Shown here piece by piece: positions 1,805 to 43,083 of a stretch of DNA of 64,000 bases. This stretch comes from Wenzhouxiangella limi (GTDB lineage: Bacteria > Pseudomonadota > Gammaproteobacteria > Xanthomonadales > Wenzhouxiangellaceae), in contig NZ_JAAGSC010000034.1 of the NCBI RefSeq assembly GCF_010499265.1, positions 1-64,000 on the forward strand, read 5' to 3'. Position numbers and translations under genes: made by a program. Position 1 is the first letter of the stretch, and each line of letters opens with the position of its first letter. Under the pieces are notes generated by a model. That model was given only the letters and a program-made list of their open reading frames with translations. It was not told where the DNA came from and searched no databases.

Positions 1805-2716
1805 TCAGCTCTGGCGGTGGACCAGGCGATCGGCGAGCCAGTGCAGGGCCTCGCTGTTGCCCTCGAATCGGTTCAACGCGGCGCGCGCCCGGTCATCGAG
1901 TTCGGCGATGCGGCAATAGGCCGCCTCAACCCCGAACAGGCCCGGCCAGGTCGCCTTGCCGTGGGCTTCATCGGCGCCGGCGGTCTTGCCGATGACCTCG
2001 GTTTGGCCCTCCACGTCAAGCAGGTCGTCGCGGATCTGGAACGCCAGACCGATCAGTTCAGCGAACTCACGCAAGTCGTCGACCTGCGTGCCCGGCAGGG
2101 ATGGAACCAGCGCCGTGGGCATCATCACCGCAGCCCGGATCAGCGCGCCGGTTTTGAGCTGAAACATGGTTTCCAGCGTGTCCCGGTCGGGTTGTTGTCG
2201 CTCCAGCGCCATGTCCTGAGCCTGGCCGCCGGCCATGCCGGCCGCCCCGCACGCTGAGGCCAGCTCGGCAATCATCGCGGCCGCGGCCGGCAGGGGATGA
2301 TTCAATCCGGGTTCGGAGGCCAGGGCTTCGAAGGCCAGGGCCTGCAGTGCGTCGCCGGCAAGAATGGCGGTGGCCTCATCGAAGGCCAGATGGGTGGTGG
2401 GCCGCCCGCGGCGCAGGTCGTCATCGTCCATGGCGGGCAGGTCATCGTGAACCAGCGAGTAGCAGTGGATCAGTTCGACCGCGCAGGCCGCTGCATCAAG
2501 CCGCTGCGGTGCCAGTCCCAGTGCTTCGGCGCTGGCGTAGACCAGCTGGGGCCGCAGCCGCTTGCCGCCGTTGAGCAGCGCGTAGCGCATGGCCCGGCAA
2601 AGAGCCGAATCGGGATCGCCGCTCTGGCGGCTGCGCCGTTCCAGTTCACCCTCGAGGCGTTCGAGGTGTGCTTCGAAACGCGCCTCGCGGTCTGCCGGGT
2701 CTAGTCGAACGGCCAC
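1805..2716 (-). CDS. ispA: Farnesyl (geranyl) diphosphate synthase IspA
   Basis: This short-chain trans-prenyltransferase condenses IPP with DMAPP and GPP to give farnesyl diphosphate, the precursor of quinone side chains and, through UppS, of undecaprenyl phosphate. The 303-residue protein has both aspartate-rich Mg-diphosphate sites: DDLPAMDDDDLRRG and the second motif QIRDDLLDVEG. The NGGKRLRP substrate-binding block is also present. It starts with GTG at 2716, overlapping the end of bamD by 16 bases on the same strand; no strong ribosome-binding site is visible, so translation may be coupled. In enterics and pseudomonads ispA sits between xseB and dxs. Neither is here: the flanking genes are bamD and, on the opposite strand, mogA. 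Confidence 0.93.
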   Translation of the reverse strand: MAVRLDPADREARFEAHLERLEGELERRSRQSGDPDSALCRAMRYALLNGGKRLRPQLVYASAEALGLAPQRLDAAACAVELIHCYSLVHDDLPAMDDDDLRRGRPTTHLAFDEATAILAGDALQALAFEALASEPGLNHPLPAAAAMIAELASACGAAGMAGGQAQDMALERQQPDRDTLETMFQLKTGALIRAAVMMPTALVPSLPGTQVDDLREFAELIGLAFQIRDDLLDVEGQTEVIGKTAGADEAHGKATWPGLFGVEAAYCRIAELDDRARAALNRFEGNSEALHWLADRLVHRQS

Positions 2717-7974: not shown

Positions 7975-9360
<1,386 letters not shown>

Positions 9361-20739: not shown

Positions 20740-23169
20740 CTAGAAAACCTGTCCGAATGTGAACTGCAGCGCCTGGGTATCGTCGCCGTCGCGCTCGCGC
20801 AAGGGGGTGGCCAGGTTGATGATGATCGGACCGATCGGGGCCTGCCAGGTCAGCGAGATGCCGGTCGAGGCGCGCAGCAGGTCGCTGTCGAAGGTGTCGA
20901 CATCCCGGAACACGTTGCCGACGTCGACAAACCAGGCCAGGCGGGTGCCGCTGGCCTCGACGAACGGGATCGGAAAGGCCAGCTCGGTCCCGAAAACGAC
21001 CTTGAAGTCGCCGCCGACAGAGCGGCAGAACTGATCCTTCGGCCCCAGCGAGTTGTCGTCGAAGCCGCGGATGTCGGACACGCCGCCGCCGAAGAAATGC
21101 TCGTAGAACGGCAGGCCCTGGTCGATGGTCACGATCTCGTCGAGCTGGCAGTTGCCGGCCAGGCGCACGGGTTCGACCGCTTCCAGGCCCAGATCGCTGT
21201 CGTAGCTGTCGTAGGCATCGCCGTAGGAGACGTCGCCGCGCAGGCTGAACGCCATCCGCCTGCCGATCGGCCAGTACTTGCGGCCACGGTAGCTGAGCTT
21301 GTAGAACTCGCGCGAGCTGCCCGGCACGGCGATTTCTGCGGTCAGCCGATTGAGCGAGCCGCGGGTGGGGTTGAGGAAATGGTTGCGGTTGTCGCGCGAG
21401 AAGGTGGTATCGAAGCGGAAGGTGGTCACGCGCCGCTCGCTGCTCGACAGGAAGCCGTCCTGGTCTTCGTCGAGCGAAATGCCCAAGGGGCGGTCGGCCG
21501 GCACCCGCACGACGATGTTGCTGTCGGGGTCTTCCGGGTCCTCCGGCACAAACACGGCCGGCAGGTTGATATCCACCCGCTGGGCCGAGGCGCCGAAGCG
21601 CAGGAAGCTCAGTTCGGTGATGGGGAAGCCGTAGTTGACCCCGGCCGCCGCCTGGCTGGTCGAAAACGAGGAAATGTTGGCTCGGCCCTGGTCGAACTCG
21701 GTGTAGCGCAGGAAAAAGCCGCGCGAGACCCCGTCGTCGGTGTAGAAGGGGTTGGTGTAGTTCAAGCTGGCCTGGGTCAGGATCCGGCTGCGGCTGACCG
21801 AAAAGCCGACCCGCCGCCCGGAGCCCAGAAAGTTGTCCTGCTCGACCGAGATCGAGGCAATCAGCCCCTGGATCTGCGAATACCCGAGACCGACCTGAAA
21901 GCTGCCCGAGGGCTGTTCCTCGACGCTGATGACGATATCGATCTGGTCTTCGGTGCCGTCGACCGGATTGGTTTCGACGTTGACGTTTTCGAAAAAGCCC
22001 AGGCGCTGGATGCGCAGACGCGATCGGTCCAGCGCGGCCTGCGAGAACCAGCCGCCCTCGAACTGCCGCATCTCCCGGCGCAGCACTTCGTCCTTGGTCT
22101 GGGTGTTGCCCTGGAACTCGATCCGGCGCACATAAACGCGCTGGCCCGGGTCGATGGAAAAGTTGATTTCAACCTCGTTGGTGTCGCGGTCGATGCGCGG
22201 GACCGGGTTGACGTTGGCGAAGGCGTATCCGATGTTGGCCAGGATGGCCGAGATGTTGTCCACGCTCTGCTCGATATCGCTGCGCGAGAATCGTCCGCCG
22301 TCTTGCACCATGATCAACTGGCGCAGAGTGGATTCGGCCAGGATCAGCTCACCGGTCAGGACCACGTCGCTGACGGTGAACACCTCACCCTCGCGGATGT
22401 TGGCGGTAATGAAAATGTCCTGCTTGTCGGGGCTGATGGAAACCTGGGTGGACTCGATGGCGAAGTCGATAAAGCCGCGATCGAGGTAGAAAGAGCGCAA
22501 GGCTTCCAGATCACCCGACAGCTTTTCGCTGGTGTACTGGTTGCGTCCGCGCCAGAAGAACAGCCCGCGCGTGGTGTGGGACTCGAAGTCCTCGCGCAGT
22601 TCGTCTTCGCTGAAGCTTTCGTTGCCGACCACGTTCAGGTGACGGATGCGGGCCTGGTCGCCTTCGTCGATGATGATCGACAGGCCGACGCGATTGCGGG
22701 CCAGTTCGCTGATGCGCGTGTCGACGTCCACACCGTAATAGCCGCGGCCGAAATACTGCCGGACCAGCTCCTGGCTGACCCGGTCCAGGCTGAGCTGGTC
22801 AAAGATTTCGCCTTCGGCAATGCCGATGCCCGCCAGCGCCGGCATCAGGTCATCGTTCTTGATCTGGCGGTTGCCGGTGATGGTAACCGAGGCGATGGCC
22901 GGCCGTTCCTGGACCGTGATCACCAGTGTGTCGTTCTCGCGAGCCAGCTGGATGTCGCTGAAAAAACCGGTCCGGTACAGATCGCGGATCGTGCTGCGTC
23001 CGATCGCCGGGGTGAGCTGATCGCCCACCTCGACCGGGATGAAGCTGAAGACATTGCCCTCCGAGATTCTTTGCAGCCCTTCGACCCGGATATCGCCGAT
23101 GCGGAAGCTCTCGCCAACGGCATGACCGGAGACGAACAGCACGATGAGCAGCAAGCAGAGTCGTTTCAT
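20740..23169 (-). CDS. bamA: Outer membrane protein assembly factor BamA
   Basis: BamA is the Omp85-family core of the beta-barrel assembly machine in the outer membrane. The 809-residue protein has a signal peptide ending near VGES, five POTRA domains over about residues 22-420 (IRVEGLQRISEGNVFSFIP begins the first) and a C-terminal 16-strand barrel. The barrel contains the conserved RGF-type loop block VSDIRGFDDNSLGP, and the chain ends in Phe as outer membrane barrels do. AAAGGA lies just upstream of the ATG. It sits between rseP and skp, the classical sigma-E-linked envelope operon. Confidence 0.96.
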   Translation of the reverse strand: MKRLCLLLIVLFVSGHAVGESFRIGDIRVEGLQRISEGNVFSFIPVEVGDQLTPAIGRSTIRDLYRTGFFSDIQLARENDTLVITVQERPAIASVTITGNRQIKNDDLMPALAGIGIAEGEIFDQLSLDRVSQELVRQYFGRGYYGVDVDTRISELARNRVGLSIIIDEGDQARIRHLNVVGNESFSEDELREDFESHTTRGLFFWRGRNQYTSEKLSGDLEALRSFYLDRGFIDFAIESTQVSISPDKQDIFITANIREGEVFTVSDVVLTGELILAESTLRQLIMVQDGGRFSRSDIEQSVDNISAILANIGYAFANVNPVPRIDRDTNEVEINFSIDPGQRVYVRRIEFQGNTQTKDEVLRREMRQFEGGWFSQAALDRSRLRIQRLGFFENVNVETNPVDGTEDQIDIVISVEEQPSGSFQVGLGYSQIQGLIASISVEQDNFLGSGRRVGFSVSRSRILTQASLNYTNPFYTDDGVSRGFFLRYTEFDQGRANISSFSTSQAAAGVNYGFPITELSFLRFGASAQRVDINLPAVFVPEDPEDPDSNIVVRVPADRPLGISLDEDQDGFLSSSERRVTTFRFDTTFSRDNRNHFLNPTRGSLNRLTAEIAVPGSSREFYKLSYRGRKYWPIGRRMAFSLRGDVSYGDAYDSYDSDLGLEAVEPVRLAGNCQLDEIVTIDQGLPFYEHFFGGGVSDIRGFDDNSLGPKDQFCRSVGGDFKVVFGTELAFPIPFVEASGTRLAWFVDVGNVFRDVDTFDSDLLRASTGISLTWQAPIGPIIINLATPLRERDGDDTQALQFTFGQVF

Positions 23170-23219: not shown

Positions 23220-24590
23220 TTAGGTGATCAGACGTAAGATATCGTTAAATATGGCCAGACTCATCAGGCCCAGCACCATGACCAGCCCCAGGTACTGACC
23301 TGCAATCTGGATCGACTCGGAAACCGGCGATCCCTTGATCACCTCAACCGTGTAGTAGAGCAGGTGGCCGCCGTCGAGCATGGGGATGGGCATCAGGTTG
23401 ATGATGGCCAGCGAAAGGCTGATCAGACCAAGAAAAAACAGAAACCGCGACAGCCCCAGCTGCGCCGAGCTGTCGGCCATCTGCGCGATCGTGATCGGCC
23501 CCGACAGGTTGCTCAGCGAAGCCTTGCCGGTGATCATGCGGCCCAGGATACCCAGAGTGGCGGTGGTCAGACGCCAGGTTTCACCCACGGCCTGGCCGAG
23601 CGCCTCGACCGGGCCGTGGCGCAGCACGACAAACGCCCGCTGCATTTCGGCCTGGGTCGCGGCGTCGGGCGGTGGTGCCTGGATACCGATGACCGGACGT
23701 CCCTGGTCGAGCGCCGGCGTGATGCTGCGTTCGAGCACCCGGCCGTCACGCTCGACCGTGAGGTCAATGGTGCGAACTTCGCCGTTTTCGTCCAGGGCCT
23801 GGGCCGGGATCAGCGTGGCGATGTCGCGCCAGTCCGAAACCGGTTCGTCGCCGATGCTGACCAGACGGTCGCCGGCGGCCAGGCCGGCCGCATCGGCGGC
23901 TGAGCCGGCCTGAACCTCGCCGATGCGTGGCGGAAGCGGCGGTCGCCACGGCTGCATGCCCAGGTGTTCCAGCGTGTCTTCTTCGTTGAAATCGGGGCCC
24001 AACTGCCCCAGCGGCAGTCGCACCGAGCGGGTGGCGCCGGAGCGATTCTCGACCTCGACGGTTGTTTCCCTGCGGTCCAGCGCCGGCTTCATCAGCCCGA
24101 GCATCGCATGGGTCCAGGAATCGGCCCGACGTCCGTCGACATGGGTGATCATGTCGCCTTCGTTCAGGCCGGCCTCGGCCGCCAGGCCGGTGGTCGGACC
24201 GAGCACGGGGCGGGTTTCCGGCACCCCGACGACAAACATCAACCAGAAAGCGGCGACAGCAAAGATCAGGTTGAATACGGGGCCGGCGGCAACGATGGCC
24301 ATGCGCTGGCCGACCGGCTTGCGGTTGAAGGCTTCGTGCTGATGTTCGGGCGTCACGGTCTGCTCGCGCTCGTCGAGCATCTTGACGTAGCCGCCCAGGG
24401 GAATGGCAGCGACCTGGTAGCAGGTGCCGTCGCGCGCCGTGCGCGAAAACAGGGCGCGGCCGAACCCGACCGAGAACGTCAAAACCCGTACGCCGCAGCG
24501 GCGCGCAACCCAGAAATGTCCGAACTCGTGAAAGGTCACGAGCAGGCCGAGTGCGACCAGCAACCAGAAAACGGGGCCTAATATGTCCAT
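23220..24590 (-). CDS. rseP: Site-2 zinc metalloprotease RseP
   Basis: RseP performs the intramembrane cleavage of anti-sigma factor RseA, after DegS, to release sigma-E in response to outer membrane stress. It also clears signal peptides. The 456-residue protein has the zinc motif HEFGH at about residues 21-25 in the first membrane helix. Two PDZ domains follow in the middle (ETRPVLGPTTGLAAEAGLNEGD and the second at IGEVQAGSAADAAGLAAGD, each seen in part). The C-terminal LDGGHLLYY motif supplies the third metal ligand. In nearly all gammaproteobacteria dxr lies between cdsA and this gene; here only 62 non-coding bases separate them. Confidence 0.95.
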   Translation of the reverse strand: MDILGPVFWLLVALGLLVTFHEFGHFWVARRCGVRVLTFSVGFGRALFSRTARDGTCYQVAAIPLGGYVKMLDEREQTVTPEHQHEAFNRKPVGQRMAIVAAGPVFNLIFAVAAFWLMFVVGVPETRPVLGPTTGLAAEAGLNEGDMITHVDGRRADSWTHAMLGLMKPALDRRETTVEVENRSGATRSVRLPLGQLGPDFNEEDTLEHLGMQPWRPPLPPRIGEVQAGSAADAAGLAAGDRLVSIGDEPVSDWRDIATLIPAQALDENGEVRTIDLTVERDGRVLERSITPALDQGRPVIGIQAPPPDAATQAEMQRAFVVLRHGPVEALGQAVGETWRLTTATLGILGRMITGKASLSNLSGPITIAQMADSSAQLGLSRFLFFLGLISLSLAIINLMPIPMLDGGHLLYYTVEVIKGSPVSESIQIAGQYLGLVMVLGLMSLAIFNDILRLIT

Positions 24591-24652
24591 GCCAATTTGC
24601 GAATCCTATGGGCTGCGTATTGTATGGGCAATGCCGGGAGCAAATGGTTCGC

Positions 24653-25453
24653 TCACTGGCCCCACCATAACCAGGCCAGCGCGAAGAAAGGCAGCGCGGC
24701 GCCGAGGCTGTCGAAGCGATCCAGCAGGCCACCGTGGCCGGGCAGCAGCGAGGAGCTGTCCTTGAGTCCCTGCTGGCGCTTGAACAGGCTGATGAGCAGA
24801 TCACCGCCGATCGACACGGCGGCCAGGACAAGACCGATCGCTGCGGCCGGGCCGGGCGCGAACGGCGCCCCGGGGAAGGCCAGCGCGGTGCCGGCCGAGA
24901 CCAGGGTTGCGGCCAGCAGACCGCCGAGCGCCCCGGCGCGGGTCTTGCCCGGGCTGATGCGCGGCGCCAGACGCGCCCCGCCGATGGCCCTGCCGCTGAA
25001 ATAGGCGCCGATATCGGCTGCGGCGATAATGCCGACCACCAGCAGCACCAGCCACGGCGATTGCGCCTGCAGCAGCGAAAGCGACAGCCAGGCGCTCAGC
25101 AAGATAACGGCCAGGGCGACGAGCTTCAGGCCGCGCAGATGGCGCCCGAAGTTCGGCTGTCCCAGCCACAGCAGCATGACCAGCCAGGCAAGCACCGCCA
25201 GGCTCAGCGCCAGCCCCGGCAGAGCCGAATTCAGCAAAAGGTGTAAAACCAGCGCGACCAGCAGCAGGCAACCGGCAAACGCCAGCCACTGGATTGGCTC
25301 GGGAAGCCCGGCCAGTCGACCCGCTTCCCGGCCGGCGACCCCCAACAGCAAAACGCCGGCGGCGATCGAAAACGCTGCCGGCGGGAGGAAGAACAGCAAT
25401 CCCAGGCCCACGGCCGCCATGGCCACGGCGGTGAGAAACCGGGTTTTAAGCAC
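24653..25453 (-). CDS. cdsA: Phosphatidate cytidylyltransferase CdsA
   Basis: CdsA makes CDP-diacylglycerol from phosphatidic acid and CTP in the inner membrane, the branch point for all phospholipids. The 266-residue polytopic protein has about seven hydrophobic segments and the family signature near the C-terminus, GLKDSSSLLPGHGGLLDRFDS, seen as KDSSSLLPGHGG and LLDRFDS. A GTG start at 25453 overlaps the uppS stop region by 8 bases. Its product feeds PssA, also in this window. Confidence 0.93.
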   Translation of the reverse strand: MLKTRFLTAVAMAAVGLGLLFFLPPAAFSIAAGVLLLGVAGREAGRLAGLPEPIQWLAFAGCLLLVALVLHLLLNSALPGLALSLAVLAWLVMLLWLGQPNFGRHLRGLKLVALAVILLSAWLSLSLLQAQSPWLVLLVVGIIAAADIGAYFSGRAIGGARLAPRISPGKTRAGALGGLLAATLVSAGTALAFPGAPFAPGPAAAIGLVLAAVSIGGDLLISLFKRQQGLKDSSSLLPGHGGLLDRFDSLGAALPFFALAWLWWGQ

Positions 25454-26174
25454 TCTGGACCTGGCTCAACCCGCCGAAGCGACGTTCGCGACCGGCATAG
25501 TCCATCAGGGCTTCATCCAGCGCCTCGGCGCCGAAATCCGGCCACAGCACCTCGGAAAAATACAGTTCGGTGTAGGCGATTTGCCAGAGCAGAAAGTTTG
25601 ACAGACGCTTCTCGCCGCCGGTCCGGATGAAAAGGTCCGGTGACGGCAGGCAGGCCAGGGTCAGCTCTTCACCAAGGTGCTCCTCGGTCAGGTCTTCGGC
25701 GGCCAGATTGCCGGTGGCGGCTTTGGCGGCGATTCGCCGGGCGGCGGCAACGATGTCGCTGCGGCCGCTGTAGTTGACCGCCACATTGAGCTGCAGCCGC
25801 TGATTGCGGCAGGTCAGCTGCTCGGCCTGCGCCATGCCGTTACGCAGGCTGGGATTGAAAACGGAGCGGCCACCGATGAAATTGATCCGCACGCCGTGTT
25901 GGTGCAGTTCGCGCACGTCCTTGTTGAGGGCCTTGAGAAACAGGTCGAGGAGCTTGCGCACCTCGGTTCTCGGCCGGCGCCAGTTCTCGCAGGAAAAGGC
26001 AAAGACCGTCAGCACCTCGATATCGCGCCGGATGGCGGCTTCGATGGTGCGTTTGAGCGCATCGCTGCCGGCCTGGTGCCCGTACGAGCGCGGCTTTCCG
26101 CGGCGCATGGCCCAGCGCCCATTGCCGTCCATGACAATGGCGACGTGGCGAGGAACATCGACGGCGTCACTCAC
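25446..26174 (-). CDS. uppS: Undecaprenyl diphosphate synthase UppS
   Basis: UppS is the cis-prenyltransferase that extends farnesyl diphosphate with eight IPP units to undecaprenyl diphosphate, the carrier lipid for peptidoglycan and O-antigen. The 242-residue protein has HVAIVMDGNGRWA with the catalytic Asp, the GHQAGSDAL block, FAFSCENWRRP, and the C-terminal PSPDLFIRTGGEKRLSNFLL substrate region. It starts with GTG at 26174, one base after the frr stop. Together with ispA it shows that the cell makes and uses C5 isoprenoid units. Confidence 0.95.
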   Translation of the reverse strand: MSDAVDVPRHVAIVMDGNGRWAMRRGKPRSYGHQAGSDALKRTIEAAIRRDIEVLTVFAFSCENWRRPRTEVRKLLDLFLKALNKDVRELHQHGVRINFIGGRSVFNPSLRNGMAQAEQLTCRNQRLQLNVAVNYSGRSDIVAAARRIAAKAATGNLAAEDLTEEHLGEELTLACLPSPDLFIRTGGEKRLSNFLLWQIAYTELYFSEVLWPDFGAEALDEALMDYAGRERRFGGLSQVQSA

Positions 26175-26733: not shown

Positions 26734-26821
26734 GATCTACCTCTTGATTGCCTGCGCCTTTTTAAGGCGGTCAATCCGGCATTGTAAGTCCACAGCGGCC
26801 CCGTCCGGCAGCCGATCTCGT

Positions 26822-29806: not shown

Positions 29807-29836
29807 ATTGTAGCCCTGCGGTGCGGGCTGCTGCAA
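29807..29836 (-). promoter_or_regulatory. Putative rpsB-tsf promoter
   Basis: On the minus strand TTGCAG (29836-29831) and TACAAT (29812-29807) are separated by 18 bases, close to the sigma-70 consensus. Transcription would start near 29800, leaving a leader of about 240 bases before rpsB. Confidence 0.55.
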
Positions 29837-29911
29837 CAACATTCTCGTGTTTTCCGTGCAGAGCCATGCTGATCTGCGCGCGTCGGCGGCGCGACGACTT
29901 ACAATGACGCC

Positions 29912-43028: not shown

Positions 43029-43083
43029 GAATTGAGTCTCTTCAAGAACCTAGTCGGCCATTGTAACCACCTCACCCTTGACG

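Follow-up and report, generated by a model that had tools for sequence, protein, structure and literature searches.

Empty dxr site between cdsA and rseP in Wenzhouxiangella limi: very probably the scar of MEP pathway loss in a lineage using the mevalonate pathway

Does a dxr gene missing from its usual place between cdsA and rseP mean that it was moved, or that the methylerythritol-phosphate (MEP) pathway was lost? The window, meaning the whole stretch analysed, was 64,000 nucleotides long (positions 1-64,000 of contig NZ_JAAGSC010000034.1 of Wenzhouxiangella limi, GCF_010499265.1; genome G000 below). Open frames on the minus strand gave the order rpsB-tsf-pyrH-frr-uppS-cdsA-rseP-bamA-skp-lpxD, which is standard. 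The gap between cdsA (24653..25453, minus strand; CTP_transf_1, Pfam E = 1.7e-47), the upstream flank of the missing gene, and rseP (23220..24590, minus strand; Peptidase_M50 and PDZ, Pfam E = 1.6e-70), the downstream flank, was exactly 62 bp (24591..24652, minus strand), at the position that dxr has in most relatives. Next downstream of rseP is bamA (20740..23169, minus strand; POTRA and Omp85), and uppS, whose product consumes isoprenoid precursors, lies at 25446..26174 (minus strand; Pfam E = 1.5e-79). The Dxr of X. arboricola had no significant match in the window (best E = 0.39). The initial annotation had stated that dxr is absent, with 62 bases separating cdsA from rseP, and that the rest of the cluster is in place; both statements were borne out, the second for rpsB through lpxD. 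Its further statement that dxs and ispD/ispF are absent at two other conserved sites in the window also held when the neighbours of ispA and eno were read. The ispA-type polyprenyl synthetase gene (1805..2716, minus strand; PF00348, E = 2.1e-55) is 12 bp from the next gene, with no dxs at that site, and eno (8068..9360, plus strand) is directly followed by a GCV_T-domain gene instead of ispD/ispF.

The locus was compared with 80 named genome loci carrying the nearest rseP relatives, and dxr was present in 64 of them. The closest named relatives were Wenzhouxiangella MAGs and strains (rseP identity 59-71%), and none of the eight Wenzhouxiangella-type loci (L014-L020, L035) had dxr between cdsA and rseP. 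The cdsA-rseP interval was also without dxr in Lysobacterales outside Wenzhouxiangella (L042, Dyella mobilis; L036, L040, L027, L029).

Whole-genome profile searches were run for Dxs, Dxr, IspF, IspG, IspH and the mevalonate genes in a set of 61 genomes (37 of the own family, three of f5, a different family of the order, namely G040, G051, and G060, and 21 further order-level genomes); in G000 (3.35 Mb, 44 contigs, 99.59% complete) the MEP enzymes searched were absent and the mevalonate genes present. Dxr, IspF, IspG, and IspH had no match in G000, and nothing was above the family cut-off for Dxs (TIGR00204, 54 bits in the genome search and at most ~59, cut-off 466), the weak partial matches being to E1/transketolase-type enzymes. 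A lone weak PF13292 match in G000 was rejected as Dxs, being a 2-oxoacid dehydrogenase E1-alpha that adjoins E1-beta. Contig C31 encodes an E1-alpha/beta fusion of 747 aa that contains a Dxs-like domain; it is not an obvious Dxs replacement, since MEP-using relatives have similar-sized frames with the same partial match. Dxr, IspG, and IspH were absent from 36 of the 37 family genomes (all but G035) and from the three f5 genomes, and no true Dxs was found in the 36 HMGR-type family members or in family f5. The same searches found Dxr in 20, IspG in 21, and IspH in 21 of the other 21 order-level genomes, and gave matches in E. coli. In one mevalonate-type genome without Dxr, IspG, and IspH (G032), an ispD-ispF pair persists (L131:9074-10410) beside a polysaccharide deacetylase-like gene, perhaps serving to make a different product; a partial IspF match was seen in G031.

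The mevalonate genes are on contig C36 (locus L013), not on the contig of the window, and lie on one strand, overlapping, with rho close by. They comprise diphosphomevalonate decarboxylase (MDD; L013:7670-8785; TIGR01240, 259 bits, cut-off 171), a PMK-like kinase (L013:8782-9855), an HMGR-mevalonate kinase (HMGR-MVK) fusion (L013:9792-12143), and type I IPP isomerase (IDI1; L013:12088-12717; TIGR02150, 160.5 bits, cut-off 105.8). The PMK-like kinase scored 92.7 bits against TIGR01220, under the cut-off of 165.7, and was assigned by homology and by its position between MDD and HMGR-MVK. The fusion is a single open frame of 783 aa with HMGR at residues 26-418 (TIGR00532, 418 bits, cut-off 260) and MVK as the C-terminal half at residues 482-756 (TIGR00549, 246 bits, cut-off 163). 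When the HMGR half was aligned with Pseudomonas mevalonii HMGR (1qax) over 423 residues (E = 2e-126), the motifs ENVIG, HNKGIMNG, GNDWRA, and GHMxLHA, in which the catalytic Glu, Lys, Asp, and His reside, were intact. HMGR frames of 750-1026 aa were found in 35 of the 61 genomes (32 of the own family and three of family f5), and the MVK half of the long frames was verified by tblastn in L116-L118 and L121-L123. In G036, a second MVK-like frame (L123:6967-7911), 53% identical to the kinase half, directly follows the fusion. Away from the cluster, many family members have a second, separate HMGR of ~540 aa that bears an HMG-CoA_red_N domain (e.g., G018, L115:8321-9952); it was not found in G000. 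The classical mevalonate pathway yields IPP only, so an IPP isomerase is required.

HMG-CoA synthase (HMGS) is encoded by a separate gene on a third contig, C32 (L114:8397-9629), with both the N and C Pfam domains above cut-off and 340 bits against TIGR01835 (cut-off 360). No connection to leucine breakdown was seen among its neighbouring genes. With HMGR, MVK, MDD, the PMK-like kinase, IDI1, and HMGS all present, the expectation that a mevalonate-type route is needed was supported. Six genomes that have HMGR (G003, G011, G018, G019, G024, and G027; 95-99% complete) gave no PF01154 match for HMGS, and G018 and G027 are single-contig genomes. Because G032 has a divergent HMGS (138 bits, cut-off 360), a still more divergent enzyme is conceivable in these relatives; HMG-CoA from leucine breakdown is the other possible source.

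With Dxr, IspF, IspG, IspH, and a true Dxs absent and the mevalonate genes present, the missing dxr is very probably the scar of complete MEP loss in the Wenzhouxiangella lineage, enabled by a mevalonate pathway that would now supply all IPP and DMAPP. Counting against firmness, the PMK-like kinase and HMGS both scored under curated cut-offs, and several HMGR-bearing relatives are without HMGS. The initial annotation had left it at lost or moved; judged by the genome searches for Dxr, IspF, IspG, IspH, and Dxs, the MEP absence in G000 is loss, and the relocation part is wrong. That dxr and its MEP partners survive undamaged, having moved or failed to assemble, would fit an assembly of 44 contigs, but four separate MEP enzymes are missing at 99.59% completeness and are missing likewise from three relatives assembled as single contigs (G018, G026, G027), which refutes this reading in practice and makes it highly improbable. 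More remote still is a running MEP variant in which the unrelated DXR-II (DXR type II) substitutes for Dxr: that enzyme is reported from scattered bacteria in a passage of PMC3847144, but IspF, IspG, IspH, and Dxs are missing as well, and therefore no MEP route could reach completion even with DXR-II. Under MEP loss with mevalonate replacement, HMGS would convert acetyl-CoA to HMG-CoA, the fused HMGR-MVK protein would carry HMG-CoA through mevalonate to mevalonate-5-phosphate, and PMK, MDD, and IDI1 would lead on to the diphosphate, IPP, and DMAPP, respectively, with IPP and DMAPP feeding IspA and UppS.

For the timing of the loss, the informative genome is G035, a family member that lacks HMGR, carries dxr, IspF, IspG, and IspH, and shows cdsA-dxr-rseP in the usual order. 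In an RseP+BamA tree, read without branch supports, G035 was sister to the dxr-less Wenzhouxiangella loci, and L029, L052, and L071, also dxr-less at the cdsA-rseP site, were placed in another clade, so that dxr may have been lost twice. Since family f5 also carries the HMGR-MVK fusion, the mevalonate cluster would either have been transferred between the own family and f5 or predate both losses. No Dxs above cut-off was found in G035; as the genome is just 91% complete, this may be an assembly gap, or Dxs may have been lost ahead of MEP.

The spacer left at the former dxr site contains the hexamer TACAAT (24619..24624, minus strand), which lies 28 bases ahead of the rseP start and is probably a -10 element. 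The hexamer named in the initial annotation is thus real, and its proposed role in starting rseP-bamA transcription gained support from related gaps. Nine Wenzhouxiangella-type gaps measured 62-120 bp, and eight of them had an exact TACAAT 28-72 bases before the rseP start, the ninth (L014) having TAGAAT in its place. In a Markov control of 2000 samples no hexamer was common to more than six sequences, a significance that is overstated because the nine gap sequences are related. The cdsA-dxr and dxr-rseP junctions of dxr-bearing relatives, among those listed, were 0-78 bp long and did not contain TACAAT; TANAAT occurred in none of 60 cdsA-dxr gaps and in one of the dxr-rseP gaps, that of G035 not being the one. 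Five of the six TACAAT copies in the window were intergenic and upstream of a gene, a class covering 2.4% of strand positions by the gene calls made in this analysis (P = 4.5e-8). Copies at 26781-26786, 29807-29812, and 43060-43065 (minus strand) and at 29900-29905 (plus strand) lie upstream of frr, rpsB, pepA, and a UPF0176/rhodanese gene. Since TATAAT was found nowhere in the window and TACAAT mostly upstream of genes, the counts suggest TACAAT as the usual -10 hexamer there. The alternative that the spacer copy is chance or a remnant of shared ancestry, with no promoter, draws on a strict sigma-70 -35/-10 scan of the spacer that gave no pair, on a -35 region that is not conserved among the gaps, and on the TAGAAT of L014; we consider it unlikely, as an exact hexamer was kept in most gaps while its flanks diverged and the window copies cluster upstream of genes. 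TACAAT is probably a new predicted -10 element, and the spacer would then probably give rseP-bamA a promoter of its own.

The loss of Dxs has a cost outside isoprenoid synthesis. Pyridoxal phosphate (via PdxJ) and the thiazole of thiamine (via ThiG) also derive from DXP, which Dxs makes, and PdxS provides a DXP-independent route to B6. PdxJ was found in 60 of the 61 genomes, including G000, where it is a full equivalog (NF003623, 370 bits, cut-off 347); its motifs were conserved in all Dxs-less genomes compared (59-70% identity to the G000 protein). ThiG was present in 15 of the 36 mevalonate-type family members, among them the single-contig G018, and was not found in G000. PdxS was rejected as an alternative B6 route, being absent above cut-off from all 61 genomes. 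The loop near a conserved Arg of PdxJ reads ARRG in four Wenzhouxiangella genomes (L158:9668-10414) and ARGT in G000 and MEP relatives. By these searches, PdxJ, which requires DXP, is conserved in genomes that encode no Dxs, and since PdxJ and ThiG are kept with neither Dxs nor PdxS, either an unrecognised source of DXP exists or PdxJ and ThiG are used differently.

We give about even chances to the reading that the mevalonate-using clade makes DXP for B6, and in many members for thiamine, with a non-Dxs enzyme, unrecognised or recruited, which permitted the loss of Dxs along with MEP. Promiscuous DXP synthesis by E1, transketolase, or RibB could suffice, because the vitamin demand is small. 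A more doubtful reading is that B6 is not made de novo: peptide feeders would import it, and PdxJ would be a passenger of the rnc-era-recO operon or act on another substrate. The position of pdxJ, directly after the gene in the recO position, fits a passenger, as does the feeding of strain AB-CW3 on proteins and other cells described in passages of PMC7691419, but the PdxJ motifs are conserved in every Dxs-less genome compared, and 15 of the 36 members retain a further enzyme that uses DXP, ThiG. If DXP is still made, that for the retained PdxJ would come from a non-Dxs source, since Dxs is gone.

These genomes offer a gammaproteobacterial clade with apparently outright replacement of MEP by mevalonate and, in G035, a MEP user of the same family for comparison. 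The deletion suggests that when a gene drops out of the middle of a tight essential operon, those downstream of it may gain a new promoter. The DXP cost of losing Dxs and the HMGR-MVK fusion go beyond what the window alone could show; the natural fusion could be of use to pathway engineers, and the question of how Dxs is replaced in DXP-needing bacteria becomes tractable, with demand at vitamin level and single-contig members to screen.

No statement of MEP loss, an HMGR-MVK fusion, a scar promoter, or PdxJ without Dxs in Wenzhouxiangella was found in the open-access literature, nor was a natural HMGR-MVK fusion. The presence of the mevalonate pathway in the genus was already known: passages of PMC7691419 (2020) name it, with squalene synthase, as Wenzhouxiangella-specific relative to Marinicella, and those passages make no mention of MEP loss, the empty dxr site, the HMGR-MVK fusion, HMGS-less members, or PdxJ without Dxs. 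The Wenzhouxiangella HMGR shares the 423-residue alignment and the catalytic motifs with the class II HMGR of P. mevalonii and differs from it in being the N-terminal half of an MVK fusion in a biosynthetic cluster. A known bacterial HMGR fusion is Enterococcus MvaE, with acetoacetyl-CoA thiolase (PMC13001223). Traces of DXP are still made in E. coli lacking Dxs, and point mutations of aceE or ribB increase the amount ~20-fold (PMC3424233); these PDH E1 or RibB variants yield DXP without Dxs, as laboratory suppressors and not as Wenzhouxiangella proteins. The nearest likeness for DXP is with 181 species without Dxs that keep the rest of MEP, for which an alternative to Dxs probably exists according to the authors (PMC10663253). 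Both they and Wenzhouxiangella need DXP and encode no Dxs, but those bacteria, chosen as MVA-less, need it for isoprenoids, whereas Wenzhouxiangella would make isoprenoids via MVA and need DXP for vitamins alone.
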